Assembly (NCBI RefSeq): GCF_000152625.1
Contig: NZ_CH724156.1
Location: 2,658,602-2,722,601, forward strand
Direction: 5' to 3'
From: Roseovarius nubinhibens ISM
GTDB lineage: Bacteria; Pseudomonadota; Alphaproteobacteria; Rhodobacterales; Rhodobacteraceae
Length of the DNA stretch: 64,000 bases
The position numbers were made by a program, and so were the translations under genes. Under the pieces are notes generated by a model. The model was not told the DNA's origin. It did not search any database and was given only the letters and a program-made list of their open reading frames with translations. Each line of letters starts with the position of its first letter. The first letter of the stretch is position 1. Positions 21,941 through 52,844 of this stretch are shown here, piece by piece.

Positions 21941-22262
21941 ACACACCTCACAACTGACACCACACACGCGCCCGGAACCGCCCGGCCGCCGGGGCAGTCT
22001 AGCGGATTTTGGGTGTGACGAAAGCCGGTACGGGGTGTCACGCTGCCGGCCGGGCGATGATGGGGCGGTGGTGTTGAGCGGAGGTTTGGGGCGGGGGCGG
22101 CGCGTTGGTGACGCCTCCTGCCGGGCAGATCAGTATCTGCCGGCCCCATGGTCGCACCCATGTCGGCGCGGGTCGGAATTTGTGCCGGTGGGGGTGGCCC
22201 CCATTGCTATATCCGGCGCATGTTGATTGATTGACGCAACATCGGGAATCGGGGGTAAGAGC
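21941..22262. other. Intergenic region upstream of soxB
   Basis: These 322 bases hold the promoters of the Imm11-like gene and the divergent sox operon. Composition changes from AT-richer on the left to very GC-rich on the right. An AT-rich patch TTGATTGATTGACGCAAC lies near 22220-22240, about 30 bases before soxB. No palindrome stands out. Confidence 0.4.
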
Positions 22263-23516: not shown

Positions 23517-23576
23517 TCTGCGGGGCAGAGGTTTGGACATGAGCATGAAGAGCATGATGACAGCGAGGGGCGCAGC

Positions 23577-23849
23577 ATGAGGATCACCTGTCCGCTATGT
23601 GGCGCGCGCGACCGGCGCGAGTTTTACTATTCCGGGGCGGCGGTGGCGCTCGACCGGCCGGCGCCCGAGGCCGGGGCCGAGGTCTGGGATGACTACCTGC
23701 ACAACCGCGACAACCCGGCCGGGGTGACGCGGGACATGTGGTATCACGAGTTGGGCTGTGGCTCTTGGGTGGTGGTGACGCGCAACACGGTGAGCCATGA
23801 GGTGATCGGCACCGCGCTCGCCCGCGATGAAAAGGGGCGGGGCGCATGA
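23577..23849 (+). CDS. soxD: Sarcosine oxidase delta subunit
   Basis: A 90-aa zinc-binding structural subunit. The zinc ligands expected from studied family members are present: Cys5 and Cys8 (CPLCG), His57 and Cys61 (YHELGCGSW). It overlaps soxA by four bases (ATGA). Length is normal. Confidence 0.96.
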   Translation: MRITCPLCGARDRREFYYSGAAVALDRPAPEAGAEVWDDYLHNRDNPAGVTRDMWYHELGCGSWVVVTRNTVSHEVIGTALARDEKGRGA

Positions 23850-26770: not shown

Positions 26771-27314
26771 GTTGACAGCCAAGACGCCGGGGGCGGGGAT
26801 TTTCCCGTTCGAGATCGGCGGGATCACCGCCCGCGAAGAGACGCCCGAGGCGATGACCGCCATCGCGCCCTACAAGGGCCGCGAGGCCGAGGCCAGCGCG
26901 GCGCTTGAGGCGGCGCATGGCATGGCGCTGCCCGCGCCAGGACGCAGCACTGGCAAGGCCGGCGCGCGCGCCCTGTGGTTTGGCCGGGATACGGCGCTCT
27001 TGATCGGGCCGCGGGTGGATGCGTCGCTCGGCCGTCATGCCGCGCTCACCGATCAGTCGGATGCCTGGATCGTGGTGCGGCTCGAAGGCGCGGGGGCGCG
27101 CGACGTGCTGGCCCGGCTGACGCCGCTCGATCTGCGCGAGGGCGTGTTCAAGCGCGGCCATACGGCGCGCAGCGAGCTGGCCCATATGGCGGGTTCGATC
27201 ACGCGGGTTGGGCCGGAGGCCTGGCAGATCATGGTCTTTCGCAGCTTTGCGCGGACCCTTGCCCATGATCTCGACAGCGCCATGCGCGGGGTTGCGGCGC
27301 GGGCGGGCGCGTGA
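26763..27314 (+). CDS. soxG: Sarcosine oxidase gamma subunit
   Basis: A 183-aa subunit. The frame is open well upstream inside soxA, but the best start is GTG at 26763, seven bases after GGAGGG. It gives VTELTAKTPGAGIFPFEIGG and overlaps soxA by eight bases. Conserved segments: WIVVRLEGAGARDVLARLTP, LDLREGVFKRGHTARSELAH and VFRSFARTLAHDL. It packs against the other subunits. Last gene of soxBDAG. Confidence 0.9.
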   Translation: MTELTAKTPGAGIFPFEIGGITAREETPEAMTAIAPYKGREAEASAALEAAHGMALPAPGRSTGKAGARALWFGRDTALLIGPRVDASLGRHAALTDQSDAWIVVRLEGAGARDVLARLTPLDLREGVFKRGHTARSELAHMAGSITRVGPEAWQIMVFRSFARTLAHDLDSAMRGVAARAGA

Positions 27315-35782: not shown

Positions 35783-37810
35783 CTAGCGCCGCCAGAGACC
35801 GGCGTAAGAGGCAAACACCCCCTGTAGCTTGCTCAGCACCCGCAAGGCCGGGCGACGGCCGAGACCCTCGCCTGTGGCAAGCCGTTCGACCACCACTTCG
35901 ACCGGGCAGGGCAGGCCGGTCACCGGATCGCAGTAGCGCGGGTAATCGATGAGCGCCGCATGTACCAACCCGTCGAGCGTCGGGCGGGCGACGCGGCGAT
36001 CGGGCACCGGCCCCAGATCGGTAGTAAGCCCCCAGCCCGCATAGAAGGGCGCGCCAAGGCAGGTGACGGGCAGCCCGCGCAGCAGCGCCTCGAACCCCAT
36101 GAGCGAGGTCATCGTCCAGACCGCATCGACCTGACCGAGCAGGGCGGCGGGATCGGCATTGACCAGCACCGCATCGGCCAAGCCGGTGAGCGCCTCGGCC
36201 TCGATCTTGCCGGGGCGCAGCCCTGCCTCCACATCGGGATGCGGCTTGTAGAGGATCACCGCCTCGGGATGGGCAGCGCGGGCGGCCTCCAAGAGACCGA
36301 GATTGGTATGCACCTCGCCCGCGCCAAGGCGGATAGAGGCATCGTCTTCGACCTGACCGGGGACAAGGATGCGCGGCCCCGGGGGCAGATCCTCGGGCAG
36401 CGCCGGGGCCTCGCCTTGATTGTATTTCGACAGGCCCAGATCGATCAGACGGCGGCGCAGATCCTCGGCGCGGCGGGCCTGATCCCGGCGCAGGTCCGAG
36501 CGCCGCGCGATCCAGCGTTCGAGCCGCGAGGGGCGCGACGGGTCGTAATAGATGCCGAGATCGTCGAGCGCCAAGGACAGCGGCGGGGTCAGCGCCGCGC
36601 CGAGCCCGCGCGAGCGCAGGAACCCGTCTTCGAGCCGCAGCGCGGTGTCGGGGGCGCGGTCGCTCTTGCCCGCCCAGACCATATCGCGGCGATCCGGCGC
36701 GCTCCGGTCAAAGATCACCCGGCGTTCGCGGCCAAAGAACCCCTGCAGCGCGGGCCGTTTCCAGAGCCGCATACCATGGGCGCACCAGCCCCGGCGATCC
36801 TCGCGCCAGGCGCGGGTCCGTGCCTCGAGCGTGGCGAGCGTCTCCTCGAAACTGCACAGCCGGTCGTGGCAGGGGTCATACCAATGCGGATAGAGCAGCA
36901 TGGCCCCGGCAAAGAGCTGTGCCCGAGTGAGGTTGCGGCCCCGGCGCGGCAACGACAGCGGATGGCGGTCCTCGGTGAGCCCCCAGCCGGCATAGAAGGG
37001 CTGGCCAAAGACGCGGGGGCGGTGACCGGCGAGAATGGCCTCAAAGCCGAGCTGCGAGGTGACCACATAGACGCCGATGGCCCCTTCGAGCAGATGCCAG
37101 GGGCTCACCTCCTCGGAAAAGAGCGAAATCCGGTCGCTTTCATCCTCGGGGCCGAAATAGCCGGGCCGGTGGCCGGCGGCGGTCTCGGGATGGGTCTTGA
37201 TCAGGATGCGCGCGCCGGGGTGGTCCTCTTGGGCATAGTAGAGCGCCTCGCGAAAGCTGTTGGCATCGGACTTGCCATGGGTGACGGAGGCGTCGCCCCG
37301 GGTCTGGTCGATGACCAGCACATAGCCCGGATCGGGGCAGGGGGCGTCGGGGTCAAATCCCGAGTATTTGCTCAGATGCGCCTCGGTCATCCGGGCGATC
37401 CCGGCGCGGGCCCGGTCGAGCAGCGCCGTGTCGTCGAGCGGATGCTCGCGCAGTAGGGTTTCAAGGTCGGACGCGCTGTCGCTGTCGAAATAGATGCCGT
37501 TTTCGTCGATCACCAGACCGAGCGGCGGCTCGCCCGCGCGGCCGGGAAAGAGCGAACGCAGGAACGCATCCTCGACCCGCAACAGCCCTGCGCCGGTTTT
37601 GGCCGACACCGCCTCGCCCCGTGCGGCATAGGGCGAGCGACCCCAGACCGCGATGCGATCCTCAGGCCCAGCGCGTCCCAGCGAGAGCGGATAGCCCGCC
37701 AGCGCCATGATCCGACGCAGGCGCTTTTGCCGCAAAAAGCCGCCGTTAAAATAGCGAACCCGCCGCCCCCCGGAGGGAACGGCGGGTTCAGCCGTTGGGT
37801 CTGTGATCAT
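35783..37810 (-). CDS. kpsC: Capsule Kdo-linker transferase KpsC (LipA-like)
   Basis: A 675-aa protein built of two homologous halves. Matching elements in each: RVEDAFLRS and RLEDGFLRS, ENGIYFDSDS and DLGIYYDPSR, LIKTHPE and LYKPHPD, TSQLGFEAIL and TSLMGFEALL, QPFYAGWGLTED and APFYAGWGLTTD. In this family the two domains add alternating beta-linked Kdo residues to the lipid anchor of group 2 capsules, with KpsS adding the first. The gene is translationally coupled (ATGA overlap) to the export protein upstream. Cytoplasmic or peripheral to the inner membrane. Confidence 0.93.
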   Translation of the reverse strand: MITDPTAEPAVPSGGRRVRYFNGGFLRQKRLRRIMALAGYPLSLGRAGPEDRIAVWGRSPYAARGEAVSAKTGAGLLRVEDAFLRSLFPGRAGEPPLGLVIDENGIYFDSDSASDLETLLREHPLDDTALLDRARAGIARMTEAHLSKYSGFDPDAPCPDPGYVLVIDQTRGDASVTHGKSDANSFREALYYAQEDHPGARILIKTHPETAAGHRPGYFGPEDESDRISLFSEEVSPWHLLEGAIGVYVVTSQLGFEAILAGHRPRVFGQPFYAGWGLTEDRHPLSLPRRGRNLTRAQLFAGAMLLYPHWYDPCHDRLCSFEETLATLEARTRAWREDRRGWCAHGMRLWKRPALQGFFGRERRVIFDRSAPDRRDMVWAGKSDRAPDTALRLEDGFLRSRGLGAALTPPLSLALDDLGIYYDPSRPSRLERWIARRSDLRRDQARRAEDLRRRLIDLGLSKYNQGEAPALPEDLPPGPRILVPGQVEDDASIRLGAGEVHTNLGLLEAARAAHPEAVILYKPHPDVEAGLRPGKIEAEALTGLADAVLVNADPAALLGQVDAVWTMTSLMGFEALLRGLPVTCLGAPFYAGWGLTTDLGPVPDRRVARPTLDGLVHAALIDYPRYCDPVTGLPCPVEVVVERLATGEGLGRRPALRVLSKLQGVFASYAGLWRR

Positions 37811-38952
37811 ATACCGCTAAGCGTGTCGCCGGCCGTCGAGACCGACCCGACCGCGCCCAGCGTGCCGGTCATCGCGGCAATCACCTTGGTCCATTGGGCA
37901 AACGGCGCCTCGGTCACATAGAGCGTGTCATCGTCGCGGATCGAGAAATCGCGCGCCATGAACATGCCGTTGGGCCGCGTCAGGTCGAGCACATAGACCA
38001 TGCGCTGTGCCCCCACGAGATCGTCGCGGCCGAGCACCTGATTGGCGATCTCGGCAGGTTCGTTGCGCATCACGAAAACCCCGGTGGGATCGGCGCTGAC
38101 GGTGCTGAGGCCGCCGACCTGCGCAATCGCCTCGACGGCGCTGAGCGTCTGGGTTTCAAAGGCGACGCGCGCCTGCCCGTTGGTCGCGCCGAGCGCGGTG
38201 AAGGAGCGGGTGTCCTGTTCCACGAGGATTCGGTCGCCACCACGCAGGGCGATGTCATATTCGGGATGCTCATAGAGGTCCTGGAACCAGATTTTCGAGC
38301 GCTGGTTGCCACGCAGAATGGTGATCTGGGCCACTTCGGGCGAAATGGCGATGCCGCCCGCCGCCGCCAGCATGGCCGAGAGCGTGCGGGTGGGCCGTTC
38401 GATCGGATAGACGCCTTGGCCGCCAACAGCCCCCGAGAGCGTCACGGTCGAGCCATCACCCGCCACGCGTGCCACCTGCACCTGCGGGTCAGGGGTCTGC
38501 TCTTCGAGCTTGCGGGTGATGATGCGGCGAATGGATTCGGGCGTGTTGCCTGCGGCCTTGATGCGGCCGGCATAGGGCACGAAAATATGGCCAGAACCGT
38601 CGACCTGCACCTCTTCGAGCCGCGTCTGGCTGGTGCCTTCGCTGGCGAGAAGCCCGTCATCGACGTTTTCCCAGATCGACAGGCTGAGCGTGTCGCCCGG
38701 CTGGATCGTGTCCGACCCGAGCTTGCCCGCGCTGCGGAAGGCTTCGGTAAAGCCGAGGCTGGGCTGCACGGCGGTGGCGCGGGTCACACGGTCGTTGACC
38801 GCCACGACAAAGGCATCGCCGGACCGTTGCACCGACCCTGCATAAATCTCACGTTTGTTGGGGCCAACGCGCGGAAGGCCACAGGACGAAACGACCGCCA
38901 CCATGGCCAAAAGGGCGACGGATCGCGCCCATCGGGTTGTCTTGATTTTCAC
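37807..38952 (-). CDS. Polysaccharide export outer-membrane lipoprotein (Wza/KpsD type)
   Basis: A 381-aa lipoprotein with signal sequence and lipobox (MVAVVSSC). The poly-export domain begins at DTIQPGDTLSLSIWENVDD and contains VQVDGSGHIFVPYAGRIKA. Two SLBB-like modules follow (VTLSGAVGGQGVYPIERPTR, with RILVEQDTRSFTALGATNGQ). It would form the outer-membrane channel for the capsule made with KpsC and KpsS. The inner-membrane ABC transporter genes (kpsE, kpsM, kpsT) are not in this window. Four CCAACC-type boxes lie just upstream. Confidence 0.88.
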   Translation of the reverse strand: MKIKTTRWARSVALLAMVAVVSSCGLPRVGPNKREIYAGSVQRSGDAFVVAVNDRVTRATAVQPSLGFTEAFRSAGKLGSDTIQPGDTLSLSIWENVDDGLLASEGTSQTRLEEVQVDGSGHIFVPYAGRIKAAGNTPESIRRIITRKLEEQTPDPQVQVARVAGDGSTVTLSGAVGGQGVYPIERPTRTLSAMLAAAGGIAISPEVAQITILRGNQRSKIWFQDLYEHPEYDIALRGGDRILVEQDTRSFTALGATNGQARVAFETQTLSAVEAIAQVGGLSTVSADPTGVFVMRNEPAEIANQVLGRDDLVGAQRMVYVLDLTRPNGMFMARDFSIRDDDTLYVTEAPFAQWTKVIAAMTGTLGAVGSVSTAGDTLSGI

Positions 38953-38997
38953 TGCCCGGTCTCCTCGACCTGATTAATTCTGCCTCAGTAGTTTTAT

Positions 38998-39071
38998 CCA
39001 ACCCATAGGAATAGGTTTGGTTTTTTGTCCAACCTACCGAAATAGGATCGGAAAATCCAGCGCTAGGTTGG
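38998..39071. promoter_or_regulatory. Four alternating CCAACC boxes upstream of the export lipoprotein
   Basis: The 126-base gap between the two capsule transcripts has a box CCAACCCAT at 38998, its reverse form TAGGTTTGG at 39012-39020, CCAACCTAC at 39029, and TAGGTTGG at 39064-39071. The outer pair of the second set (CCAACCTA and TAGGTTGG) is an exact inverted repeat. Box one with box two is a near-exact inverted repeat. They lie 46-120 bases before the lipoprotein start, where a repressor or activator would act. Confidence 0.55.
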
Positions 39072-39078
39072 GGGGCGG

Positions 39079-40371
39079 TCAGGTGATCGCGCGCAACTGT
39101 TGCCTCGGGGCCGCGCTTCCACTGTGCAACCCGTCATAGGGATCGTCGGGGCTCAGCATCATGTCGACGGTCTGACGCAGCACCTGACGGCGGCCGCGCG
39201 ACGAATAGAACCCGCCCGCCACCTGGCTCGTTTCGAGAAGATAGCGGCGATAATCGGCATAGGCCTTGCGGTCGGGGCGTTCGGCCCCGGCAAAGAAATC
39301 GACGAGCGGTTTGGTCGAGACGAATTCCGGTTTGGCATAGACCGCCGCGCCGAAGGTCTTGAGCGGGATGCCACGCCAGAGCACCTGTTGCGCGGCGGTG
39401 GAATTCACCGTGACGGCGCTGCGGGCCTCGTCCAGAAGGGCTGCAAGTTTGCCGCCGCGAACATAGTGCACACGGTCCTTGATGCCGTATTTACGGGCCA
39501 GGGCGCGGAGGTCGCGGCGGACGGGGGTGCGGCCGTCTTCGAGGGGGTGGGCCTTGACCACGAGGTGGTGGTGCAGGGGGGCGCCTTGGGCAAAGCCGGA
39601 GACCACCGTGTCGAGAAATTCGGTCATGGTGGAGAAGGGCGAATGCATCTGGAAGCTGCTGTCATGTTCGAGCTGCAGAAGCGCCAGATGATAGGGAAAG
39701 CCGCCGTGCCGGATGCGCCATGTGGCGATGCGCCGGTCGATGGCCTGAAAGGGCATCAGGGCCAAGCGTTTGAGATACAACCCGAATTCGGCGCTGACGC
39801 TGAGCGTGCGATGAGGCCGGAAGCCGCGATAGCCCCGGTTCCAGAACAGCACGAACCAATGATAAAGGGCGCCGTAGAAGATGTGGTGGCGCATGTCGCC
39901 CCAGCTGGCGGGGGGCAGGGCGCTGTCCATATCGGACAATTCGAGGTCGCGGCGCATCTGGGCGACGCTCATCTCCATCAGCCGCGAATTGCCATTGCTG
40001 CCGCCGCGCTCATAGGTGACCCAATAGGGGCGCAGATAGCCCTCTTCAAAGACATGGATGGTGATCCCGGCGGCGCGGGCCTGGGCCACGGCTTCGGCAT
40101 GGATCGGGCGGGTGTCGCCATAGAGCACGATGTCGGTGACGCCCTTCTCGGCGATGATCTCGCGCAGCCGGTCGGACCAGGCTTCGGGCGTGTCGGCATA
40201 GGGGATATAGCTCGCCGATTGCGGCCAGAACACCCGGTCGCCCATGTTGAACCCCACGCGCCAGACCTCGGCGCCGGCGCGTGTCAGCATTTTGCCCAGC
40301 CGTGCGAAAAACGGGCCATGCGGCCCTTGCAGGAACAGGAAAACGTGTTTTTTGCCAGCGGAATAGGCCAT
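39079..40371 (-). CDS. kpsS: Capsule Kdo transferase KpsS (LipB-like)
   Basis: A 430-aa single-domain relative of KpsC, starting at the ATG at 40371 (MAYSAGKKHVFLFLQGPHGP). Typical segments: LQGPHGPFFARLGKML, DTRPIHAEAVAQARAAGITI, HVFEEGYLRPYWVTYERGG, VVKAHPLEDGRTP, and VNSTAAQQVLWRGIPLKTFG. KpsS adds the first Kdo to the phosphatidylglycerol anchor of capsule. It is divergent from ribE. It reads toward kpsD and kpsC, with 126 bases separating it from the former. Confidence 0.92.
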   Translation of the reverse strand: MAYSAGKKHVFLFLQGPHGPFFARLGKMLTRAGAEVWRVGFNMGDRVFWPQSASYIPYADTPEAWSDRLREIIAEKGVTDIVLYGDTRPIHAEAVAQARAAGITIHVFEEGYLRPYWVTYERGGSNGNSRLMEMSVAQMRRDLELSDMDSALPPASWGDMRHHIFYGALYHWFVLFWNRGYRGFRPHRTLSVSAEFGLYLKRLALMPFQAIDRRIATWRIRHGGFPYHLALLQLEHDSSFQMHSPFSTMTEFLDTVVSGFAQGAPLHHHLVVKAHPLEDGRTPVRRDLRALARKYGIKDRVHYVRGGKLAALLDEARSAVTVNSTAAQQVLWRGIPLKTFGAAVYAKPEFVSTKPLVDFFAGAERPDRKAYADYRRYLLETSQVAGGFYSSRGRRQVLRQTVDMMLSPDDPYDGLHSGSAAPRQQLRAIT

Positions 40372-40519
40372 TGTCTGAAGGTGCGTCCGATCAGGTAGGG
40401 TCAAATCTCTGGGGGCAAAGCTAGATCGAAATTTAGGCAAAATTAAGGTGAAAACGCCTCGCTTCTTGTCATGGCGCGGCGGGGCGGATAGGTCAGGGAA
40501 AAGCCTGAGGGAGCGAGAG

Positions 40520-41107
40520 ATGTTCACTGGTATTATCACGGATCAGGGCGAGATCAGAGATCTGGAGCAGCGCGGCGATCTGCGGGCGCGGATCGGCTGT
40601 CACTATGACATGGATGGCGTCGATATGGGCGCGTCGATTGCCTGTGACGGGGTCTGTCTGACGGTGGTCGCCATGGGGGCGGATTGGTTCGATGTGGATG
40701 TCTCGGCAGAGACCGTGTCGAAGACCAATCTCGACACCTGGGCCAAGGGCCGGACGGTCAATCTCGAACGGGCGCTCAAGGTCGGGGACGAGCTTGGCGG
40801 GCATATCGTGTCGGGCCATGTCGATGGCGTGGCCGAGGTGATTTCCGTGAAAGATGAAGGGGATAGCACCCGTGTGACCCTGCGCGCGCCAAAGGCTCTG
40901 GCGCGGTTCATCGCGCCCAAGGGATCGGTTGCGCTCAACGGTACGTCGCTCACGGTGAACGAGGTTGAGGGCTGTGATTTCGGGATCAATTTCATCCCGC
41001 ACACCAAGGAAGTGACCACCTGGGGCCGGGTCGCCGTGGGGGACCGGGTCAACCTCGAGATCGACACGCTGGCGCGCTATGTGGCGCGGCTGCACGAGGC
41101 GGATTAA
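40520..41107 (+). CDS. ribE: Riboflavin synthase (alpha subunit)
   Basis: A 195-aa enzyme that dismutates two lumazine molecules into riboflavin. The start is MFTGIITDQGEI at 40520, after GAGGGAGCGAGAG. Two homologous lumazine-binding domains: GASIACDGVCLTVV in the first, PKGSVALNGTSLTVNEVEG in the second, with FGINFIPHTKEVTTWG near the end. ribB and ribH, which often follow, are not seen here. Confidence 0.96.
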   Translation: MFTGIITDQGEIRDLEQRGDLRARIGCHYDMDGVDMGASIACDGVCLTVVAMGADWFDVDVSAETVSKTNLDTWAKGRTVNLERALKVGDELGGHIVSGHVDGVAEVISVKDEGDSTRVTLRAPKALARFIAPKGSVALNGTSLTVNEVEGCDFGINFIPHTKEVTTWGRVAVGDRVNLEIDTLARYVARLHEAD

Positions 41108-41146
41108 CCTTTTACAAAACTCAACTTAAGCCGGAAAAATGCCCTG

Positions 41147-41190
41147 TCGGTGAGACGTCGGTATAACGACGGTAAAGCGACGGTAGGGGA
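41147..41190 (+). repeat. Copy B of the 11-bp-period tandem element
   Basis: Units TCGGTGAGACG, TCGGTATAACG, ACGGTAAAGCG and ACGGTAGGGGA, the last more degenerate. It starts 40 bases after the ribE stop codon, in the same orientation as the gene. Copy C follows 83 bases later. Confidence 0.75.
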
Positions 41191-41272
41191 TCTGACCCCG
41201 CGCCGCGCGGGGCGCGGGCGTTAACCTATTTGCGAGATTTCTCCCGGGGCCAAACCCGCCGAAAACGGTGGG

Positions 41273-41315
41273 TCGGTGACAGGTCGGTATTGCGTCGGTA
41301 AAGCGACAGTGCGGG
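41273..41315 (+). repeat. Copy C of the 11-bp-period tandem element
   Basis: Units TCGGTGACAGG, TCGGTATTGCG, TCGGTAAAGCG and ACAGTGCGGG. The third and fourth units agree almost exactly with copy A at 15887, 25 kb away. It lies between ribE and the end of the convergent DUF3726 gene. Confidence 0.8.
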
Positions 41316-41373
41316 TTTTGACGGAATGCCAGCCGAAATCCCGCCGAAACCCAGCCCAAACTCAGGCGAAAAA

Positions 41374-42021
41374 TCAGTCGTTATCGGTGAGCCCCGCGCC
41401 CGCCCCGGCGAGGCGGCTCGCCTCGGTGTCGGGGGCATAGGTGCGATGCGCCATCGCGCCGAGCCGCGCCGCATCGCCCGGCTCGATATGGCCGCGCCAG
41501 GCGCGGCGGACGGGCAGACCGCGCGGCGCGCTGTCCGCGCGCGCGACCTCGGCCAGCGCCGCCAAGGGCCGGCGCGGATCGGCGGCGGAGAGGTAGGAGC
41601 ACCGCTCGAACCGGGTGATGGTCACGCCCTCATAGGAGAGCCGCAGCCCGGTGCCGGTCATCTCGGCGGCGGCGGCCACGAAAGGGTAGAGCAGGAGCGG
41701 CTCGATCACGTCCTCAAGCGTGATGACCTCGCCCGCCGCCAGCGTTTCGGCCAGATCGCAGAGCGTCGCCCCGGCGCTGATCGGGCAGAGCCGCCCACCG
41801 GGGGCGGCCCAGGGCGCGGCGAGCCGGGCGGGGCGGATCATCGACGGCTCGGCCCGGTCGCAGGCGGCGAGCACCTGCGCCAGCGCCGCCGCCCCGTCGA
41901 GCCCCATGGCGCAGAGCCAGCGGGTGGCGCGGCCCGCCTCTTCGGCGAGGCCCCAGCTATAGCCCGCGCCGCGCGTCGCCTTCTTGGCCAGCCCTTCGAT
42001 TTCGCCCAGCGACCAGCTCAT
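41374..42021 (-). CDS. DUF3726-like protein
   Basis: A 215-aa protein from the ATG at 42021, overlapping the stop of the previous gene by four bases (ATGA). The frame is open for another 1.1 kb upstream, but that part is only a shadow of the 580-aa gene. The product starts MSWSLGEIEGLAKKATRGAG, then YSWGLAEEAGRATRWLCAMG, the pattern I associate with DUF3726. No catalytic motif is evident. Last gene of an operon with a 580-aa unknown protein, an M19-like protein and an aldehyde dehydrogenase. Confidence 0.7.
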   Translation of the reverse strand: MSWSLGEIEGLAKKATRGAGYSWGLAEEAGRATRWLCAMGLDGAAALAQVLAACDRAEPSMIRPARLAAPWAAPGGRLCPISAGATLCDLAETLAAGEVITLEDVIEPLLLYPFVAAAAEMTGTGLRLSYEGVTITRFERCSYLSAADPRRPLAALAEVARADSAPRGLPVRRAWRGHIEPGDAARLGAMAHRTYAPDTEASRLAGAGAGLTDND

Positions 42022-43760
42022 GCCATATCCTCTGCGTCGGTGGCCCCGTCGACGGTGCTGCCGTCGAGCATCGGATAGGTCCAGTCGTCGGCATTGCCCT
42101 CGGAGAGCTCTTCGGGGAAGGGGGCGTGTTGGAACATGGTGATGCGCAGCCAGCGGTCGGAGCGCGGATCGAAATGGCAGGCGCCGAAAAAGCTCAGCTT
42201 GGCGCGCAGCATGTCGATGGGCATCATCCCGGCGTCGATCGTGTTGTCGCGGATTTCGGCATAGGGGTGATCGCCGGTGATCTGCACCCGGCGGATGATG
42301 TGGCGGTGCTGCGGATGGGTGAGCAGGAACTCGGCCACGGTTGCGGCATCGCTGCGCAAGAGATCGGCATGGAGCCGGGCCGCGTCGCGCCCGGGGCAGA
42401 GCGGCTGTTCGTAGTCGTCGAGATCCTCGTCGAAACGCTGGCCGAGCCGGGGCTCGAGCTTGGCCTCGGAGACATACCAGACGCGGGCGCGGGGGTCTTG
42501 CGCTCGCCAGTCGATGGCGAGTGCCCAATCGTAGATGTCCTCGGTCAGCGCGCGCAATTGGGCGAGCGGCATCGCGCCCTGAATACGCATGCAGTCTTGT
42601 TCCTCGCAGGACATGGTGGAGGTCAGTTCGTCCACCAAGAGCCCGTAGGGTTCGAGCAGCAGCGAGGCGATCTGTTCCTGACCTTCGAGTGAACAGCTCT
42701 CTTCGGCCCAGCGAAACACCCGGTCCCAGGGGCGGTCGTGGATCAGATCGGCCTCGGGCAGCCAGTCGCAGAGCCGGTCGAGATCGGCGCGCAGCTCGGC
42801 CAGTTTCGCCAGTTGCACGGGATGCTCGGATGTCCAGTCCTGCGCATGGCGGCGGGCACGATAGGCATAGTCGCGAAAGGCCGCGGCCTCGGCCGGGGCG
42901 GCGGCGGGCAGCGAGCGGATGCGCGCCAGCGCGGTTTCGCGGGCATTGATCCATTGATGGATGAGCACCGGGTGATGGATGAGAAAGGGCGCCATGCCAA
43001 GCCCGGTGGAATTGCCGATGCCAAAGCTGCGGCGCAGCGCCGGGGCCAGCGGCACGGCGGTGTCCGGCGACCGGGTCCGCGCCATATGTTCGACCAGATC
43101 CATGATGAAGGCGCGGGTCAGATAGACCGAGAGCATCTCGACTTGAAACGGTCCACGGCATTCGTCGCGTGCAGCACTTTGTTCGCGGTCGGCGGCGCCG
43201 AATTTGCCCGAGCCATAGACCGCGGTGGTGCGCATCAGATAGCCCACCTCATGGATGCGGGCGGGATCGGGCTGCGTGCCTTGGGCGAGGCAATCGACCA
43301 CGTAATCCCACAGCCGCACCGAGCGGTTGGCCCGGCTCAGCGACAATTCGCGGTCCGAGATGCGGCCCGCCTCTTGTTTCGGGACATTGCGGGCGAGGCG
43401 GATGATGTCGGCCTCGGTGGGGATGCCGTCGAAGAGGGTAAAGGTCGCGTCCCAAGCGGTGGCGATCACCCGGTCCGAGCGCAGATGCGCGGGCAGGTCA
43501 TGGGCGAAGGCCACAAGGGAATAGGAATGGGTCGGGCCATGGGCGGTATAGATGGCATGGCCGGTGCCGCGCGCGTCGATCTCGAAGGCGCGGGTCTCGA
43601 ACCGCCAGTTTTCCGCCCGGAGCCGCCGCAGCAGCGTGCGCATGAAGGACAGGCGCGATTGATGGAAGGACCCGAGCCGGGCGAGACGCATGACATCGCG
43701 CGGGGCGCGCTTGGGCACCTGGGTGGCCTCGGCTGTCGCTGTCATGGTCTGGCCCGTCAT
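42018..43760 (-). CDS. Uncharacterised 580-aa protein in a catabolic-type operon
   Basis: The product is soluble, with no signal peptide or membrane helix. It is tryptophan-, histidine- and acid-rich: SFHQSRLSFMRTLLRRLRAE, HGPTHSYSLVAFAHDLPAHL, GMAPFLIHHPVLIHQWINAR, and a cysteine cluster STMSCEEQDCMRIQGAM. I do not recognise a family. A ribosome binding site (AGGA) precedes the ATG at 43760, and it begins 25 bases after the M19-like gene. The tight coupling to the DUF3726 gene suggests the two proteins act together. Confidence 0.75.
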   Translation of the reverse strand: MTGQTMTATAEATQVPKRAPRDVMRLARLGSFHQSRLSFMRTLLRRLRAENWRFETRAFEIDARGTGHAIYTAHGPTHSYSLVAFAHDLPAHLRSDRVIATAWDATFTLFDGIPTEADIIRLARNVPKQEAGRISDRELSLSRANRSVRLWDYVVDCLAQGTQPDPARIHEVGYLMRTTAVYGSGKFGAADREQSAARDECRGPFQVEMLSVYLTRAFIMDLVEHMARTRSPDTAVPLAPALRRSFGIGNSTGLGMAPFLIHHPVLIHQWINARETALARIRSLPAAAPAEAAAFRDYAYRARRHAQDWTSEHPVQLAKLAELRADLDRLCDWLPEADLIHDRPWDRVFRWAEESCSLEGQEQIASLLLEPYGLLVDELTSTMSCEEQDCMRIQGAMPLAQLRALTEDIYDWALAIDWRAQDPRARVWYVSEAKLEPRLGQRFDEDLDDYEQPLCPGRDAARLHADLLRSDAATVAEFLLTHPQHRHIIRRVQITGDHPYAEIRDNTIDAGMMPIDMLRAKLSFFGACHFDPRSDRWLRITMFQHAPFPEELSEGNADDWTYPMLDGSTVDGATDAEDMA

Positions 43761-43785
43761 CTGGCGATCCTGTCCCTATGTCCCG

Positions 43786-44772
43786 TTACGCTGCCTTGGC
43801 GGGGGTGAAGTTGGTGTCGAAGAAACGATACCAATTGCCGCCCATCAGCCCGGCCACCTCGTCGGGGGCAAAGCCGATCTGGCGCAGCCCGTCCTCGATC
43901 TTGCCAAAGTCGCGGTTGTCGCGGAACCAATGCGGCTGATCCGGGAAGCCGGGGGCGGCGGCGGAGCCTTCGCCATAGTCGATCTCCTTGGACCAGCGGC
44001 CGACGCGCATCCATTCGACGACGCTGTCGGGGTGATCTTGGCACAGATCCGAGCCGATGCCGAAATGTTCGACGCCAAAGCGGTCGGCGGCGGTGGCGAT
44101 CATGGCGCAGAACTCCTCGAGCGTGCAGTCGGTTTTGCCCTTGAGGTGGTGGGGATACATGGAAAAGCCCATCATGCCGCCGTTTTGGGTCACCGCGCGC
44201 ACCACATCGTCGCGCTTGTTGCGCAGGGCGGGTTGCCAGCTGTGGAGATTGGCGTGGGTGATGGTGATCGGACGTTCCGAGTGATCCGCCGCCTCGATGG
44301 TCGAGCGGTCGGCTGAATGGCTCATGTCGACGACGAGGCCCACGCGGTTCATTTCGCGGATGACCTGTTTGCCCATGCGGGTGAGGCCGGGGTCCTCGGC
44401 CTCGTAGCAGCCGGTGGCGAGCAGCGACTGGTTGTTGTAGCTCAGCTGCATGAAGCGGCCGCCGAGCTCGTGCAGGATCTCGACGAGGCCGATGTCATCC
44501 TCGATGGGCGAGGCGTTCTGGAAGCTCAGGAAAATGGCGGTGCGGCCGGTGTCGCGAGCAAGTTTCACATCGCTGGCCCAGCGGCCCTTGAAGATCAGAT
44601 CGGGGTAGGTTTCGAACCAGCGGTTCCACTGCGCCATGTTCTGCACGGTTTCGCGGAAATTCTCGTGATAGCAGATCGTTGCGTTGACCGCATCGACGCC
44701 GCCTTCGCGCATCTGGCGAAAGATTTTCTCGGACCAATTGGCATATTGCACGCAGTCGATGCGATAGGTCAT
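43786..44772 (-). CDS. M19 (membrane dipeptidase) family protein lacking the first metal motif
   Basis: A 328-aa TIM-barrel protein of the M19 amidohydrolase family. Recognised parts: GGVDAVNATICYHENF, VDMSHSADRSTIEAA, ITITHANLHSWQPALRNKRD, GIGSDLCQDHPD. In ordinary members the N-terminus has D-G-H-N-D, in which the His and Asp bind zinc. Here the same place reads IDCVQYANW, so both ligands are missing. The bridging glutamate of the usual IEG motif seems replaced by Gln in SFQNAS. It may bind one metal or act on an unusual substrate. It overlaps the aldehyde dehydrogenase gene by four bases. Confidence 0.8.
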   Translation of the reverse strand: MTYRIDCVQYANWSEKIFRQMREGGVDAVNATICYHENFRETVQNMAQWNRWFETYPDLIFKGRWASDVKLARDTGRTAIFLSFQNASPIEDDIGLVEILHELGGRFMQLSYNNQSLLATGCYEAEDPGLTRMGKQVIREMNRVGLVVDMSHSADRSTIEAADHSERPITITHANLHSWQPALRNKRDDVVRAVTQNGGMMGFSMYPHHLKGKTDCTLEEFCAMIATAADRFGVEHFGIGSDLCQDHPDSVVEWMRVGRWSKEIDYGEGSAAAPGFPDQPHWFRDNRDFGKIEDGLRQIGFAPDEVAGLMGGNWYRFFDTNFTPAKAA

Positions 44773-46220
44773 GCGGGCTCTCCAGCGGCGATATAGGCGG
44801 TTTTGACCACGGTGTAGAAGTCGCGGGCGTGCACGCCCTGTTCGCGCGGACCAAAGGAGCTGTCGCCGCGCCCGCCGAAGGGGACGTGGTAATCGGTGCC
44901 GGCGGTGGGCAGGTTGACGGTCACCACGCCGGTGCGGACGTTGCGGCGGAAATGGGTGGCGCGGGCGAGGCTTTGGGTCACGATCCCGGCGGTGAGGCCG
45001 AAATTGGTGTCGTTGACGGTGGCCAGAGCCTCGTCATAGCTGTCGACGCGGATCACGCTGGTCAGCGGCGCGAACATTTCCTCGCGGTTGATGCGCATGT
45101 CGTTACGGGTGTTGAGGAAGACGCCGGGCGACATGAAATAGCCCTCGGTCTCGCGCTCGAGCCGCAGACCGCCGCAGGCCAGCTCGGCCCCTTCAGAGCG
45201 GCCAAGCTCGACATAGGCGAGGTTCTCGTCGAGCTGCTGCTGGCTCACCACCGGGCCCATCTGGGTGCCCTCGGCCAGCGCATGGCCGACTTTCATCGCC
45301 TCGGCCCCGGCGATGAGTTTCTCGACAAAGGCGTCATGAATGCCCGCGTGCACGACGAGCCGCGAGGAGGCGGTGCATTTCTGGCCGGTGCCGCCGAAGG
45401 CGCCTCCGAGCGCCAGGCTCACCGCCAGATCGAGATTGGCGTCATCCATCACGGCAAGCGCGTTTTTCGAGCCCATTTCCATCTGTACGCGGGTGAAATT
45501 GCCCACCGCCGCCGAGGCGATGCCCCGGCCCACCGGCACCGAGCCGGTGAAGGAGATGGCGTCGACGCGGGGGCTTTCGACCAGACGCTGGCCGACATCG
45601 CGGCCCGCGCCCATCACCAGGTTGAAGAGACCGGCGGGGATGTCCTGACGGGCGATGATTTCGGTGAGCGCCACGGCGGAGGCCGGGGTGATATTGGCGG
45701 GTTTCCAGATCACCGCATTGCCATAGGCGAGCGCCGGGGCGATTTTCCAGCTGGCGGTGGCGGTGGGGAAGTTCCACGGGCTGATCACCGCGACGGTGCC
45801 GACCGGTTCGCGGCGCACATCGACCTCGACCCCGGGGCGGACGCTGTCGGCGTTCTCGCCGATCTGGCGCAGGATTTCATGGGCGTAATAGGTAAAGAAC
45901 TGACCGGCGCGATAGACCTCGCCACGGCCCTCGGCGAGCGGCTTGCCCTCTTCGCGGCTCAAGAGCGTGCCGAGCTCTTCGGCGCGTTGCATCATCTCGG
46001 TGCCGATGGCCATGAGCACCGCCTGTTTGCGCTCGAGCCCGTAACCGGCCCATTCCGCCTGCGCCTTGGCGGCGGCGTCGAGGGCTGCGTCGAGCTGATC
46101 GGCGCTGGCCTGTGCATAGGTGCCGACGAGGTCCGACAGATCGGAAGGGTTGCGATTCTCGACCGCGTCCTGGCCCGCGACCCATTGGCCCGCAATATAG
46201 TTTTTCTGAAGCTCGGTCAT
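44769..46220 (-). CDS. NAD(P)-dependent aldehyde dehydrogenase
   Basis: A 483-aa enzyme starting at the ATG at 46220 (MTELQKNYIAGQWV). Complete family signatures: SPWNFPTATASWKIAPALAY, FTGSVPVGRGIA, the general-base glutamate in MEMGSKNALAVMD, the catalytic cysteine in GGTGQKCTASSRLV, and EEMFAPLTSVIRVD. Substrate unknown. It is the first gene of a four-gene operon and lies 120 bases from the LysR gene transcribed in the same direction, which probably controls it. Confidence 0.92.
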   Translation of the reverse strand: MTELQKNYIAGQWVAGQDAVENRNPSDLSDLVGTYAQASADQLDAALDAAAKAQAEWAGYGLERKQAVLMAIGTEMMQRAEELGTLLSREEGKPLAEGRGEVYRAGQFFTYYAHEILRQIGENADSVRPGVEVDVRREPVGTVAVISPWNFPTATASWKIAPALAYGNAVIWKPANITPASAVALTEIIARQDIPAGLFNLVMGAGRDVGQRLVESPRVDAISFTGSVPVGRGIASAAVGNFTRVQMEMGSKNALAVMDDANLDLAVSLALGGAFGGTGQKCTASSRLVVHAGIHDAFVEKLIAGAEAMKVGHALAEGTQMGPVVSQQQLDENLAYVELGRSEGAELACGGLRLERETEGYFMSPGVFLNTRNDMRINREEMFAPLTSVIRVDSYDEALATVNDTNFGLTAGIVTQSLARATHFRRNVRTGVVTVNLPTAGTDYHVPFGGRGDSSFGPREQGVHARDFYTVVKTAYIAAGEPA

Positions 46221-46339
46221 GACATCACCCGCGATATGAAAGGAAAGACGCCCCAAGGGGGCGGTTGCCCACATCAAGACCGGAAAGACCCGTTAAGGCA
46301 AATGCAAAAAACTTGAAAAATATTCAGTTAATTTGAATT

Positions 46340-47284
46340 TTAGTCTTGGCGTGTGTCAGGGCCGTCGGCGGGGCGCGGTGACATGCTGCGCGGGCGCACG
46401 GGTTTGAGCGTCGCACGGTCGAGATCGGCGGCGCGCAGGGCGGCGACCAGCGCCCGTGTGGCCGGGGTCTGCATCATCTGCGGCGGGGTGAGCATCCAGA
46501 CCTCGCGCCGGGTCTCGCATTGTTGCAGCGGCAGAAATTCGAGGTCGAGAAATTCCGGCAGGATCGACAGTTCCGGCAGGATCGAAATGCCCGCCCCGGC
46601 GCGCACCATGCTCAGGATCGAGGCGGTGTTGCGCACAAAGAGGGTCGAGCCGTCGAGGATCGGCTGAAACCCCGGGTCGGGGATATGCTGGCAGAGCCCA
46701 TTGGCGATAAAGCGGTGATCGGCGAGATCGGCCCAGTCGAGCCGCGACCAGTTCTGTGCCAGCGGGTGATCGACGGGGCAGACCACGCCAAAGGCATCGG
46801 TCAGCACCAGTTCGCGGTCAAACCCCTGCATCGGGCCGATGGAGGCGAGCGCGATATCGGCGCGCCCGGCGGCAAGATCGCGCTGGATCGTGGCGCTATC
46901 TGTGTCGCTGATCTCGACCCGGACGCCGGGAAAATCCTGCATGAAGGATTTGAGCAGCGGCGGCAGGATCACCTGCGCCACCGAGGGCGTGGCCGAGAGG
47001 CGCACATTGCCATGTTCGGCGCGCGACAGGCTCTCGATGCTGCGCACGGTGCGTTCAAAATGATCAAGCTCGCGCTCGGCCTCGGCGCGGATCAACTCGC
47101 CCAGGGGGGTGAGCCGCGATTTGCGGGCGGATTCGAACAGCGGCGCGCCGATGTGATCCTCGAACTGGCGCAACATCATCGAGACCGCCGAGGGCGTGCG
47201 CCCCAGCATATCGGCCGCGTCCGCAAGGCTGCCGTGATCGGCAACCGCCCGGAAACAGCGCAGCATCTCGATCTTGATCGCCAT
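46340..47284 (-). CDS. LysR-family transcriptional regulator
   Basis: A 314-aa regulator from the ATG at 47284, after AAGGAGAA. The long frame upstream from 47560 has no homology. The N-terminal winged helix is clear (MLRCFRAVADHGSLADAADM, LGRTPSAVSMMLRQFEDHIG, APLFESARKSRLTPLGELI), followed by a periplasmic-binding-type effector domain. Position suggests control of the aldehyde dehydrogenase operon downstream. Confidence 0.9.
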   Translation of the reverse strand: MAIKIEMLRCFRAVADHGSLADAADMLGRTPSAVSMMLRQFEDHIGAPLFESARKSRLTPLGELIRAEAERELDHFERTVRSIESLSRAEHGNVRLSATPSVAQVILPPLLKSFMQDFPGVRVEISDTDSATIQRDLAAGRADIALASIGPMQGFDRELVLTDAFGVVCPVDHPLAQNWSRLDWADLADHRFIANGLCQHIPDPGFQPILDGSTLFVRNTASILSMVRAGAGISILPELSILPEFLDLEFLPLQQCETRREVWMLTPPQMMQTPATRALVAALRAADLDRATLKPVRPRSMSPRPADGPDTRQD

Positions 47285-49073: not shown

Positions 49074-49913
49074 ATGGAATCGCCGATCACTCTGCCCAAG
49101 CTGCGCCATGCCGATCTTGCGCCACTGTCTCTGACCCAGGTGCGCCGCGCGATGCGCGAGAACCGCTATGCGGGGCCAACGGCGGGGCTCTGTGACGGGC
49201 GGTTGCAGTGCAATATGGTGATCCTGCCCGCCGCTTATGGCGCGGAGTTTCAGACGTTTTGCGAAGAGAACCCGGTGTTCTGCCCGCTCTTGGGCGTGTC
49301 GGAGCCGGGGCAGCCGCATCTGCCCGCCTTGGGCGCCGAGATCGACCTGCGCCATGATCTGCCGCTGTTCTTCGTCTATCGCCCCGGTCAGACGGTCGAG
49401 CGGCGCCAAGATATTTCGGCGCTCTGGCGCGACGATTTTCAGGCCTTTGCCATCGGCTGTTCCTTTACCTTTGAACATGCGCTGATGCGCGAGGGGATTG
49501 GCATGCGCCATATCGAGGAAGATGTGACCGTGCCGATGTATCGCACCGATATCGCCACCGTGCCGTCGGGGGTGTTTTCCGGCCCGGCGGTGGTCAGCAT
49601 GCGGCCGGTGCGCGAGGATCAGGTCGACCGGGTGGCCGAGATCTGCCGCCAGTTCCCCCATGCCCATGGCGCGCCCATTCATGCGGGCGATCCGGCCACC
49701 ATCGGCATCCAGGATGTGATGCGGCCCGATTGGGGCGATGCGGTCAGTCTCAAGCCCGGCGAGGTGCCGGTGTTCTGGGGCTGTGGCGTCACCTCGCAAA
49801 TGGCAGTGACCCAGGCCGCGCCGGAGATCGCCATCACCCATGCGCCCGGTGCGATGCTGATCACCGATGCCGATGAGATTGCGCCGCCGGGCTGGGGCCG
49901 GGCGGCACAGTGA
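49074..49913 (+). CDS. DUF1445 / D-glutamate cyclase-like hydro-lyase family protein
   Basis: A 279-aa protein with the DUF1445 pattern: QVRRAMRENRYAGPTAGLCD, LQCNMVILPAAYGAEFQTFC, GCSFTFEHALMREGIGMRHI, VVSMRPVREDQVDRV, and late VFWGCGVTSQMAV with ITHAPGAMLITD. The mammalian relative hydrates 5-oxo-D-proline to D-glutamate. The start has an AGGAGG ribosome binding site. First gene of an operon continuing with a TRAP transporter, DUF2848 and an amidase, which suggests opening of a cyclic amide. Confidence 0.88.
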   Translation: MESPITLPKLRHADLAPLSLTQVRRAMRENRYAGPTAGLCDGRLQCNMVILPAAYGAEFQTFCEENPVFCPLLGVSEPGQPHLPALGAEIDLRHDLPLFFVYRPGQTVERRQDISALWRDDFQAFAIGCSFTFEHALMREGIGMRHIEEDVTVPMYRTDIATVPSGVFSGPAVVSMRPVREDQVDRVAEICRQFPHAHGAPIHAGDPATIGIQDVMRPDWGDAVSLKPGEVPVFWGCGVTSQMAVTQAAPEIAITHAPGAMLITDADEIAPPGWGRAAQ

Positions 49914-49980
49914 CCATGCGTGCGAGTGCGAAGACGGTTCAACACGACGCTTTACCACGGGTTCAACAAGGAGAAACGAG

Positions 49981-51018
49981 ATGAAAAAGACACTGGGCCT
50001 CATGGCCGCAACCCTCGCCGTCACCGGCGGCACCGCCATGGCCGAAGAATTTTCGGTGGTCGGCAGCTGGAGCGGCCTGCCGCTGCACAAGCAATATGAA
50101 CAGCCCTTCTGGACCGAGAAACTGCCCGCGATGAGCGATGGCCGGATGAGCGCCAACCTGACCACCCATGACCAGATGGGCATCAAGGGCGGCGACGTCT
50201 ACCGGATGCTCGGCGAAGGCGTGTTCGATGTCGGCATGACCGTGGCCGATTACGCGGTGGCCGACACCCCGGCGCTCGAAGGGCTCGATGTGCCGCTGAT
50301 CGCCGCCGATGCCAAAGCGGCGCAGGCGATGGTCGAAGCGGCGCGTCCGATGATCGACGACATCTATGCCGATGTGTTCAACGCCAAGGTTCTGGGCGTC
50401 GCGCCCTATCCGCCGCAGGTGGTGTTCTGCAACGCCGAGATCGGCTCGCTCGAGGACCTCAAGGGCAAGAAAATCCGCGCCTCGGGCCGGATGACCGGCA
50501 AGCTTCTGGAGGCGCTGGGCGCCGAGGCGGTGAGCGTGGGCTTTGGCGAGGTGCCGGGCGCGCTGCAAAAAGGCGTGGTCGATTGTGCCGTGACCGGCGC
50601 CGGGTCGGGCTATAGCGCCGGCTGGTGGGAAGTGTCGACCCATCTGATGCCGATCCCGCTCGGCGGCTGGGACCCGGTGGTCACCGCGATGAACATGGAC
50701 CGCTGGAATTCGCTCAGCGATGAGGACAAGGCGCTGGTGCAAAAGGCCGTCACCGAAGAGCTCGAGGCCCCCGCATGGGCCAGCGCGCAAGATGCGCTTG
50801 CCACCGATGTGGCCTGCCTCACCGGGCAGGGCGACTGCCCGACCGAGGCGCGTGACATGATCCTCGTCGAGGCCTCCGCGGCCGATGCCGAGACCGCGCG
50901 CAACATCCTCGTGACCGAAGTGCTGCCCGACTGGGCCGAGCGCGCCGGTGGCGATTGGGGTCAACGCTGGAACGACACCGTGGGCAAGAGCGCCGGCGTC
51001 GAAATCCCGCTCAACTAA
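49981..51018 (+). CDS. dctP: TRAP transporter substrate-binding protein (DctP family)
   Basis: A 345-aa periplasmic protein from the ATG at 49981 after AAGGAG. A signal peptide ends at GGTAMA. The family's conserved carboxylate-binding region is GKKIRASGRMTGKLLEALGA, then EVPGALQKGVVDCAVTG. It would bind an organic acid and deliver it to the DctQM membrane proteins encoded next. Two cysteines (VACLTGQGDC) may form a disulfide. Confidence 0.93.
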   Translation: MKKTLGLMAATLAVTGGTAMAEEFSVVGSWSGLPLHKQYEQPFWTEKLPAMSDGRMSANLTTHDQMGIKGGDVYRMLGEGVFDVGMTVADYAVADTPALEGLDVPLIAADAKAAQAMVEAARPMIDDIYADVFNAKVLGVAPYPPQVVFCNAEIGSLEDLKGKKIRASGRMTGKLLEALGAEAVSVGFGEVPGALQKGVVDCAVTGAGSGYSAGWWEVSTHLMPIPLGGWDPVVTAMNMDRWNSLSDEDKALVQKAVTEELEAPAWASAQDALATDVACLTGQGDCPTEARDMILVEASAADAETARNILVTEVLPDWAERAGGDWGQRWNDTVGKSAGVEIPLN

Positions 51019-51033
51019 GCGGCGGGTCTGGCG

Positions 51034-51567
51034 ATGACACAGCTTCTCATCCTGCTCGGGCGGGTGAATGAACGGCTGGCGCTGGCGGCGGGTCTGCTGC
51101 TGTTGCTGAGCGTTTCGGTCACCCTGTTTGATGTCGTCGCCAGGCCTCTCGGCCTGTCGCTTGGCGGGACCGACGAATTGTCGGGCTATGCCATGGCCAT
51201 CGCGACCAGTTGGGGCATGAGCTATGCCCTGACCAACCTCACGCATGTGCGTATCGACCTCGTTCGCGCCCGCGGCTCGGCCCCGGTGCGGGCCTGGTTC
51301 GACGCGGTGTCGATCCTGTCGCTGGCGGCGGTGGCGGTGACCATCGGCTATCGCGGCTGGCCGGTGCTGGCCAAGTCGATCAAGAACGGCTCGACCGCCA
51401 ACACCACGCTGGAGACGCCGCTGTGGATTCCACAGTCGCTCTGGATGGCGGGCTGGCTCTGGTTTGCGCTCTCGGGCGTGGTGCTGGCCGTGGTGGTCTG
51501 TGTGTTTCTGGCAGGCGGCAAACATGCGGAAATTGATGAATTCGCCGGAACGCGAGGTGAGATATGA
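51034..51567 (+). CDS. dctQ: TRAP transporter small membrane subunit (DctQ family)
   Basis: A 177-aa protein with four membrane helices: LAAGLLLLLSVSVTLFDVVA, a second over AMAIATSWGMSYAL, a third over SILSLAAVAVTIGY, and a last over WLWFALSGVVLAVVVCVFLA. It follows dctP by 15 bases and overlaps dctM by four (ATGA). Confidence 0.93.
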   Translation: MTQLLILLGRVNERLALAAGLLLLLSVSVTLFDVVARPLGLSLGGTDELSGYAMAIATSWGMSYALTNLTHVRIDLVRARGSAPVRAWFDAVSILSLAAVAVTIGYRGWPVLAKSIKNGSTANTTLETPLWIPQSLWMAGWLWFALSGVVLAVVVCVFLAGGKHAEIDEFAGTRGEI

Positions 51568-52844
51568 TCCTGTTTACATCCGGGGGACTGTTTGCCCTGC
51601 TGGCCATGTCGATCCCGGTCGGCATCGTTCTCTTTCTGCTCGCCTTCGGCATTGATGCATTTTTCAGCCCCTTTCCCCTGATGCGGGGTCTCGGGCAGGT
51701 GGTCTGGTCGTCGTCCAACAGCGCGACGCTCATCGCCATTCCCTTCTTTGTGCTTTTGGGCGAGATCCTCGTCCGCAGCGGCGTGGCGCGGCGCACCTAT
51801 GCGGCGCTCGAGGCCTGGGTGTCCTGGCTTCCCGGCGGGCTGATTCATGCCAATATCGCCACCGCGACGCTGTTTTCGGCGACCTCGGGGTCCTCTGTCG
51901 CGACCGCCGCGACGGTGGCCTCGGTGGCGACACCGCAGGCCGACAAGCTCGGCTATGATCCCAAGCTATTCTCGGGCGCGATTGCGGCGGGCGGCACGCT
52001 CGGCATCATGATCCCGCCCTCGATCAACCTCATCGTCTATGGCTTTCTGACCGAGACCTCGATCCCCAAGCTGTTTCTGGCGGGGCTGGTGCCGGGGCTG
52101 ATGCTGGCGCTGCTGTTCATGGTGGTGACGGTGATTTTCTGCGTCATCAAACCGTCGCTCGGCGGGCCGGGCATCTCGGCCACCTGGGGCAAGCGGATGG
52201 CGGTGCTCGTCGATCTCGTGCCGCTCCTGGGCCTGTTTGGCACCATCGTCGGGGTGATCTATGCCGGCTGGGCCACGCCCACCGAAGCCGCCGCCATCGG
52301 CGTCGCCATGGCCTTTGCCATTGCCGCGACCCAGACGCGGATCACCTGGGAGATGGTGCGCGAGAGCCTGTTGGGCACGGTGCGCACCACCGCGATGATC
52401 ATGCTGGTGGTGATCGGGGCCTATGTGCTCAACTTCGTGCTGACCGCCGCCGGGGTGAGCCGGGCCTTGCAGGATTTCCTCGGCAATCTCGGGATGGGCG
52501 CGCTCGCCACGCTGTTGGTGATCGTGGTGATCTATATCGTGCTCGGCTTCTTCATCGAGACGCTGTCGCTCATGGTGGCGACGATCCCGATCGTGGTGCC
52601 GATCGTCGAGCAGCTTGGCTATGACAAGCTCTGGTTCGGCATTCTGATGATCATCCTTGTCGAAATGGCGCTGATCACGCCGCCGGTGGGGCTCAACCTC
52701 TATGTGGTGCAAGGTTCGCGCGAAAAGGGCCCGCTCACCGATGTGATGCTGGGCGTCATCCCCTATGCGCTGGCGATGCTGGCGATGGTGGGGCTGTTGA
52801 TCCTCTTCCCGGCGATTGCGCTGTTTCTTCCCAACACTCTTTGA
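51564..52844 (+). CDS. dctM: TRAP transporter large membrane subunit (DctM family)
   Basis: A 426-aa permease with about twelve hydrophobic segments. Signatures include FFVLLGEILVRSGVARRTY, ATLFSATSGSSVATAATVAS, GTLGIMIPPSINLIVYGFLT and LITPPVGLNLYVVQGS. It couples sodium entry to import of the substrate bound by DctP. Confidence 0.95.
   Translation: MILFTSGGLFALLAMSIPVGIVLFLLAFGIDAFFSPFPLMRGLGQVVWSSSNSATLIAIPFFVLLGEILVRSGVARRTYAALEAWVSWLPGGLIHANIATATLFSATSGSSVATAATVASVATPQADKLGYDPKLFSGAIAAGGTLGIMIPPSINLIVYGFLTETSIPKLFLAGLVPGLMLALLFMVVTVIFCVIKPSLGGPGISATWGKRMAVLVDLVPLLGLFGTIVGVIYAGWATPTEAAAIGVAMAFAIAATQTRITWEMVRESLLGTVRTTAMIMLVVIGAYVLNFVLTAAGVSRALQDFLGNLGMGALATLLVIVVIYIVLGFFIETLSLMVATIPIVVPIVEQLGYDKLWFGILMIILVEMALITPPVGLNLYVVQGSREKGPLTDVMLGVIPYALAMLAMVGLLILFPAIALFLPNTL

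Follow-up and report, generated by a model that had tools for sequence, protein, structure and literature searches.

A conserved operon encoding an undescribed 580-residue protein and a DUF3726 partner in Roseovarius nubinhibens ISM: probable breakdown of a betaine, possibly homarine

What compound is handled by an operon in which one gene encodes a 580-aa protein that matches no described family? The question is raised by four genes at positions 41374-46220 of a 64,000-nucleotide stretch of the Roseovarius nubinhibens ISM genome (contig NZ_CH724156.1; this whole stretch is the window below). An annotation made from the sequence alone (the original prediction) had described a tight operon of an aldehyde dehydrogenase (ALDH), an M19-like protein, the 580-aa protein, and a DUF3726 protein behind a LysR gene, and its coordinates, overlaps, and gap were all confirmed. 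On the minus strand, the order is ALDH (44769..46220; 483 aa; Pfam Aldedh, E = 1.8e-153), M19-like protein (43786..44772; 328 aa; Pfam Peptidase_M19, PF01244, 7.3e-70), 580-aa protein (42018..43760; unannotated family), and DUF3726 protein (41374..42021; 215 aa; PF12525, E = 4.6e-19), with four-base overlaps between the first two and the last two genes and a 25-base gap between the M19-like and 580-aa genes. Mechanical open reading frame (ORF) calling gives a 595-aa ORF (41374-43161) in the DUF3726 frame, of which the last 215 codons are the real gene. The upstream LysR-family protein (46340..47284, minus strand; 314 aa; Pfam LysR_substrate 5.6e-39, HTH_1 1.1e-17) is the probable regulator, and the 119-base gap read between its gene and the ALDH gene (46221..46339, minus strand) is a probable promoter region. 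The operon represents a widespread, well-conserved bacterial cluster that probably breaks down a nitrogen-containing osmolyte.

Genome sampling detected the 580-aa protein in 133 of 295 genomes of the family to which the window belongs (~45%), in 53 of 385 of the class, and in 29 of 398 of the phylum. Some matches lie in small genomes (1.2-1.6 Mb), with a GC content of 28-36% at the loci, and relatives are carried on plasmids of Phaeobacter, Ruegeria, Aminobacter, Shinella, Caballeronia, Vibrio, Sinorhizobium, and the archaeon Natrinema. We compared 83 loci (39 ALDH-linked and 44 without ALDH), which were picked by their 580-aa match and are mutually related, so that the counts express linkage and not independent events. 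All 39 ALDH-linked loci contain an M19 gene, 33 are adjoined by a LysR gene, 9 contain RidA, and DUF3726 is detectable by BLAST in 34. The remaining five (L204-L207 and L210) come from another class of the phylum, and the partner genes of L205, L206, and L207 nevertheless encode the same C-terminal tail. The core is also retained in the 44 loci without ALDH (DUF3726 in 34, M19 in 33). In 20 control loci around soxB-like genes, almost none of the operon genes were found; M19 occurred only in L174 and L177, which overlap loci of the operon. Gene order is kept across Alpha-, Beta-, and Gammaproteobacteria to a degree far above chance, and an archaeal plasmid carries a distant version of the cluster. 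This agrees with the predicted single pathway, for which a gene order not conserved elsewhere had been named as a counter-indication. Three marine Rhodobacteraceae single-cell genomes and metagenome-assembled genomes (L007, L009, and L012) have the 580-aa/DUF3726 pair with no nearby M19 gene, and in L007 the next genes are of thiolase and AMP-binding types.

The 580-aa protein had been reported as impossible to place, with membership of a known family of defined function named as the other counter-indication, and this held for the databases searched: it gave no match in Pfam, NCBIfam, or PDB sequences, and 56 homologues gave no consistent match in any of the three. Family profile searches against PDB returned only noise, no sequence link to the LDH2 family was found, and the viral contigs searched held no relatives. 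An AlphaFold model built with 10 sequences had a mean pLDDT of 56.7, and Foldseek gave no useful match to it. The family, central to the operon and probably enzymatic, is left undescribed by databases and solved structures. Across 57 diverse members 31 positions are invariant, many of them Arg, and the protein is probably the principal subunit of the operon's key enzyme. In other loci its gene mostly overlaps that of DUF3726, and in L127 a single 868-aa protein comprises a 580-type region and a DUF3726-like C-terminal region, the latter assigned by position and alignment as it has no significant Pfam match. Because of this near-constant overlapping adjacency and the natural fusion, the two proteins may well form one enzyme, in line with the earlier suggestion.

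The DUF3726 protein of the window scores 68.5 bits against PF12525 (curated cut-off 22.1), and 38 of 40 aligned partner genes match this family at E values up to 1. Its C-terminus carries TYAPDTEASRLAGAGAGLTDND; a tail of the form SR..GAGAGL.DND is present in 58 of 72 partner genes, a count that takes in any partner gene with GAG near its end, and this tail may insert into an active site or interface. We found no literature on DUF3726 or PA5396. The protein is probably a cut-down relative of LDH2 enzymes that has become a partner subunit, a reading based on an archaeal bridge, Foldseek matches, and VIA-align comparisons. The archaeal partner protein matches Ldh_2 (PF02615) with E = 4.8e-9 and 36.2 bits, just below the cut-off of 38.8, and hhalign connects it to DUF3726 (E = 2.9e-4, probability 40%); the direct DUF3726-LDH2 profile comparison is weak (E = 0.0014, probability 18%). 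The AlphaFold model of DUF3726 is of low confidence (mean pLDDT 50.7), but residues 1-56, which are modelled better, gave a lead to LDH2. LDH2 enzymes made up most of the Foldseek matches to the model, with no single significant E value. When the same model was aligned by VIA-align, the 11 best matches were all LDH2 structures (Z 3.9-7.7), against 2.4 or less for unrelated entries; this likeness concerns the fold of the N-terminal helical domain and is supportive, not proof. Unlike LDH2 enzymes, DUF3726 proteins lack the Ser-His-Gly active-site motif in the aligned region; a large part of the catalytic domain is also missing, and their conserved tail is their own.

The genes around the operon in other genomes bear on its substrate. 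A betaine transporter is present in 24 of the 39 ALDH-linked loci (BCCT in 19, ProXWV in 5), from which a betaine of some kind is very probably the substrate. A full-length LDH2-family gene is found in 16 of the 39, and its product matches best in PDB to delta1-piperideine-2-carboxylate reductase (1wtj/2cwh; 184 bits versus 136 for the next); DpkA is termed an imine reductase and has been used for making N-alkyl amino acids (PMC6775277). The window ALDH, which has the Cys motif GQKCTASS and the Glu motif EMGSKN, is nearest to curated models of 2,5-dioxovalerate and alpha-ketoglutarate semialdehyde dehydrogenases at scores under their cut-offs (494 bits against 750 for NCBIfam NF052305); the former type is the nearest in two loci and the latter in a third. 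A heterotetrameric cluster of the sarcosine oxidase/N-methylglutamate dehydrogenase (Mgd) type directly adjoins the operon in several replicons. Plasmid pPGA1_262 of Phaeobacter inhibens DSM 17395 carries sarcosine-oxidase-type genes, LysR, ALDH, a "membrane dipeptidase", BCCT, the hypothetical protein WP_014881773.1 (the 580-aa protein), and DUF3726 (WP_014881772.1), and Ruegeria TM1040 has the same set plus an Ldh-family oxidoreductase. Aminobacter (aminovorans) pAA01 combines ALDH, M19, 580-aa, DUF3726, and Ldh genes with a glycine-betaine ABC transporter of the ProXWV type, and Roseateles sp. XES5 has this set with purU, folD, and sarcosine-oxidase-type genes nearby. In Phaeobacter inhibens (L133, 14333-15400), the LDH2 gene after DUF3726 seems to be split into two ORFs. 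The betaine transporters, the imine-reductase-like neighbour, and the apparent LDH2 ancestry of DUF3726 go beyond the original prediction.

We propose, with confidence a little short of even, that the operon is under LysR control and serves to break down an N-methyl heterocyclic betaine, with homarine (N-methylpicolinate) as the likeliest candidate, whose ring would be opened towards N-methylglutamate; homarine as the specific substrate falls likewise just under an even chance. Homarine has one carbon more than N-methylglutamate. The 580-aa/DUF3726 enzyme would open or cleave the N-methyl ring to yield an N-formyl-N-methyl semialdehyde, and oxidation, deformylation, and imine reduction would then lead to N-methylglutamate. 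ALDH would oxidize the semialdehyde, a five-carbon, 2-N-substituted analogue of 2,5-dioxovalerate, and the M19-like protein could carry out a C-N or N-formyl step or serve as a third subunit. LDH2 would reduce the N-methyl-imino acid to N-methylglutamate, or RidA might hydrolyze the imine instead, and the Sox/Mgd-type enzyme would finally take off the methyl group as a C1 unit. Mgd is reported to take part in homarine catabolism (PMC13390433). On a broader and more speculative view, which we hold with distinctly less than even confidence, the 580-aa protein and its LDH2-derived partner could make up an enzyme of a new type that opens rings or cleaves C-N bonds, has no sequence relationship to known oxygenases and hydrolases, and holds the conserved GAGAGLTDND tail in its active site. 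Such an enzyme could serve several pathways dealing with N-heterocyclic or quaternary amines in Proteobacteria and haloarchaea.

Several observations weigh against the homarine proposal. No oxygenase signature was recognized in the 580-aa protein. The 580-aa/DUF3726/M19 trio occurs without ALDH, as noted above, and in Sinorhizobium and Aminobacter it is also found with IclR, a PotD-type ABC transporter, and RidA, so that this core is not tied to a single substrate. In the genome of the window itself, the LDH2 (41%) and BCCT (32%) homologues are distant and neither is near the operon. Co-occurrence with sox-type genes across genomes is weak: of 30 genomes with the operon 28 have a clade-S soxB, but so do 14 of 20 without it, and genome-wide co-occurrence with sox/mgd-type genes was set aside as not discriminating. 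The tree did not separate sarcosine oxidase from N-methylglutamate dehydrogenase, and one genome (G323) has mgsABC-like genes beside its clade-S soxB. Growth of Ruegeria pomeroyi, a strain that may or may not carry the operon, is poorer on homarine than on trigonelline (PMC8269262).

Other chemistries were weighed against the same data, beginning with the M19-like protein. The original prediction took the M19 fold to imply an amide or related bond, and public records label such proteins "membrane dipeptidase". Were the protein a true amidase or peptidase, the operon would degrade a peptide or amide, and its strong Peptidase_M19 match, the two later metal-binding His residues (H152 and H173), and the catalytic Asp (D242) speak for this. 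The family match stands, but the match to PF01244 begins only at profile position 34, and the N-terminal HxD metal ligands are not present (IDCVQYANW instead). The nearest PDB entry, 2i5g, named "amidohydrolase", likewise lacks HxD in this region; we take it to be the pepD-like M19 protein of the Pseudomonas dgcAB cluster. The metal-bridging Glu is lost as well: IEG of GliJ aligns with FQN of the window protein, and the replacing residue, Gln85, is kept in at least 97% of 37 M19-like members. Because HxD and the bridging Glu are lost, family membership does not allow hydrolysis of a peptide or amide to be deduced; the protein is probably not a peptidase and should not be named dipeptidase. As the recurrent neighbours are betaine and not peptide transporters, we regard a peptide- or amide-degrading operon as unlikely.

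The M19-like and DUF3726 proteins both resemble degenerate enzyme relatives, which would also fit a scaffold or regulatory complex made of the trio, with ALDH and LDH2 alone catalytic. The invariant positions of the 580-aa family and the occurrence of the trio without other enzymes speak against such a complex, and we give it little credence. A stronger competitor, still well below an even chance in our estimation, is an operon of the same type acting on another betaine (for example stachydrine, hydroxyproline betaine, carnitine, gamma-butyrobetaine, or trigonelline): the 580-aa/DUF3726 enzyme would cleave a C-N bond, ALDH would oxidize the semialdehyde, and LDH2 would be a hydroxyacid or imine dehydrogenase. 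BCCT- and ProXWV-type transporters carry many betaines, LDH2 and ALDH are broad families, and the S. meliloti variant, which consists of IclR, a 580-like gene, its partner, M19, a PotD-type ABC transporter, an aminotransferase, a succinate-semialdehyde-dehydrogenase-like gene, and RidA, suggests further substrates for the core. The known stachydrine, carnitine, and trigonelline routes, however, use a Rieske demethylase, a CoA ligase, or a two-component flavin oxygenase, and Pfam scans of the operon genes revealed none of these. Moreover, S. meliloti without pSymA loses growth on trigonelline (PMC4207669), but the distant locus of this species is carried by another replicon, pSymB, which makes trigonelline an unlikely substrate of that locus.

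Homarine catabolism as proposed here resembles trigonelline degradation by TgnABCDE, reportedly described by Perchat et al. in 2018, which, as generally understood, likewise involves an N-methylpyridinium carboxylate, ring opening, an aldehyde dehydrogenase, and later hydrolysis. The ring-opening step of trigonelline is assigned to TgnA/TgnB (PMC8269262). In contrast to this pair, no flavin reductase or luciferase-type family was found among the operon genes scanned, and the 580-aa/DUF3726 pair stands in place of the ring-opening enzyme. A dgcAB (dimethylglycine) cluster of Pseudomonas and Vibrio, in which a predicted dipeptidase (pepD-like M19) and a hypothetical protein lie by methylated-amine catabolism genes (PMC12093977), is similar in having an M19-type protein and an unknown protein in such a context, whereas no dgcAB was seen in the window operon.

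The catabolic system had been called undescribed, which is now uncertain. Ferrer-Gonzalez et al. are said to have reported in 2026 (Nat Microbiol 11:1531) a homarine-catabolism pathway conserved in environmental bacteria. Its operon is reportedly named homABCDER, which would suit a set of five enzyme genes with a single regulator; that work may already describe the present operon, and its novelty depends on this. Betaines such as homarine are large marine pools of organic nitrogen, and in one study homarine reached up to 3% of particulate carbon (PMC8269262), the concentrations of which were overstated according to an author correction (PMC10134881). If the 580-aa protein opens such rings, the genes behind a large flux would be named, and both DUF3726 and an unnamed family of ~570 aa would gain a function. 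Given the probable descent of DUF3726 from LDH2 and the natural 580-DUF3726 fusion, the enzyme-complex hypothesis can be put directly to the test.

A sarcosine-oxidase-type cluster (soxB-, soxD-, and soxA-like genes and a probable soxG) is located at 22227-27314 of the window on the plus strand, at a distance of ~15-20 kb to the operon, and after it come genes with protein starts resembling dnaG and rpoD; the soxB-like gene of L175 lies in a similar setting. A 1.4-Mb genome (L179, 1560-10845) has a soxBDAG-like operon and then, on the same strand, probable N-methylglutamate-synthase-type genes (mgsABC) together with a gene for an FAD oxidoreductase. Just past the LysR side of the operon, a D-glutamate cyclase gene (PF07286) lies beside the gene for a TRAP-type DctP transporter and the probable partners of that gene (49074-52844, plus strand), which seem to form a unit of their own. 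The intergenic stretch downstream of DUF3726 (41130-41320) contains two occurrences of a GTCGCTTTACCG...CACCGAC-type sequence. Beyond it, a probable riboflavin synthase gene and a probable capsule/polysaccharide export block (35783-41107) keep their order beside the operon in Roseovarius and a genome of the same genus (L002, L003, L011, and L044).

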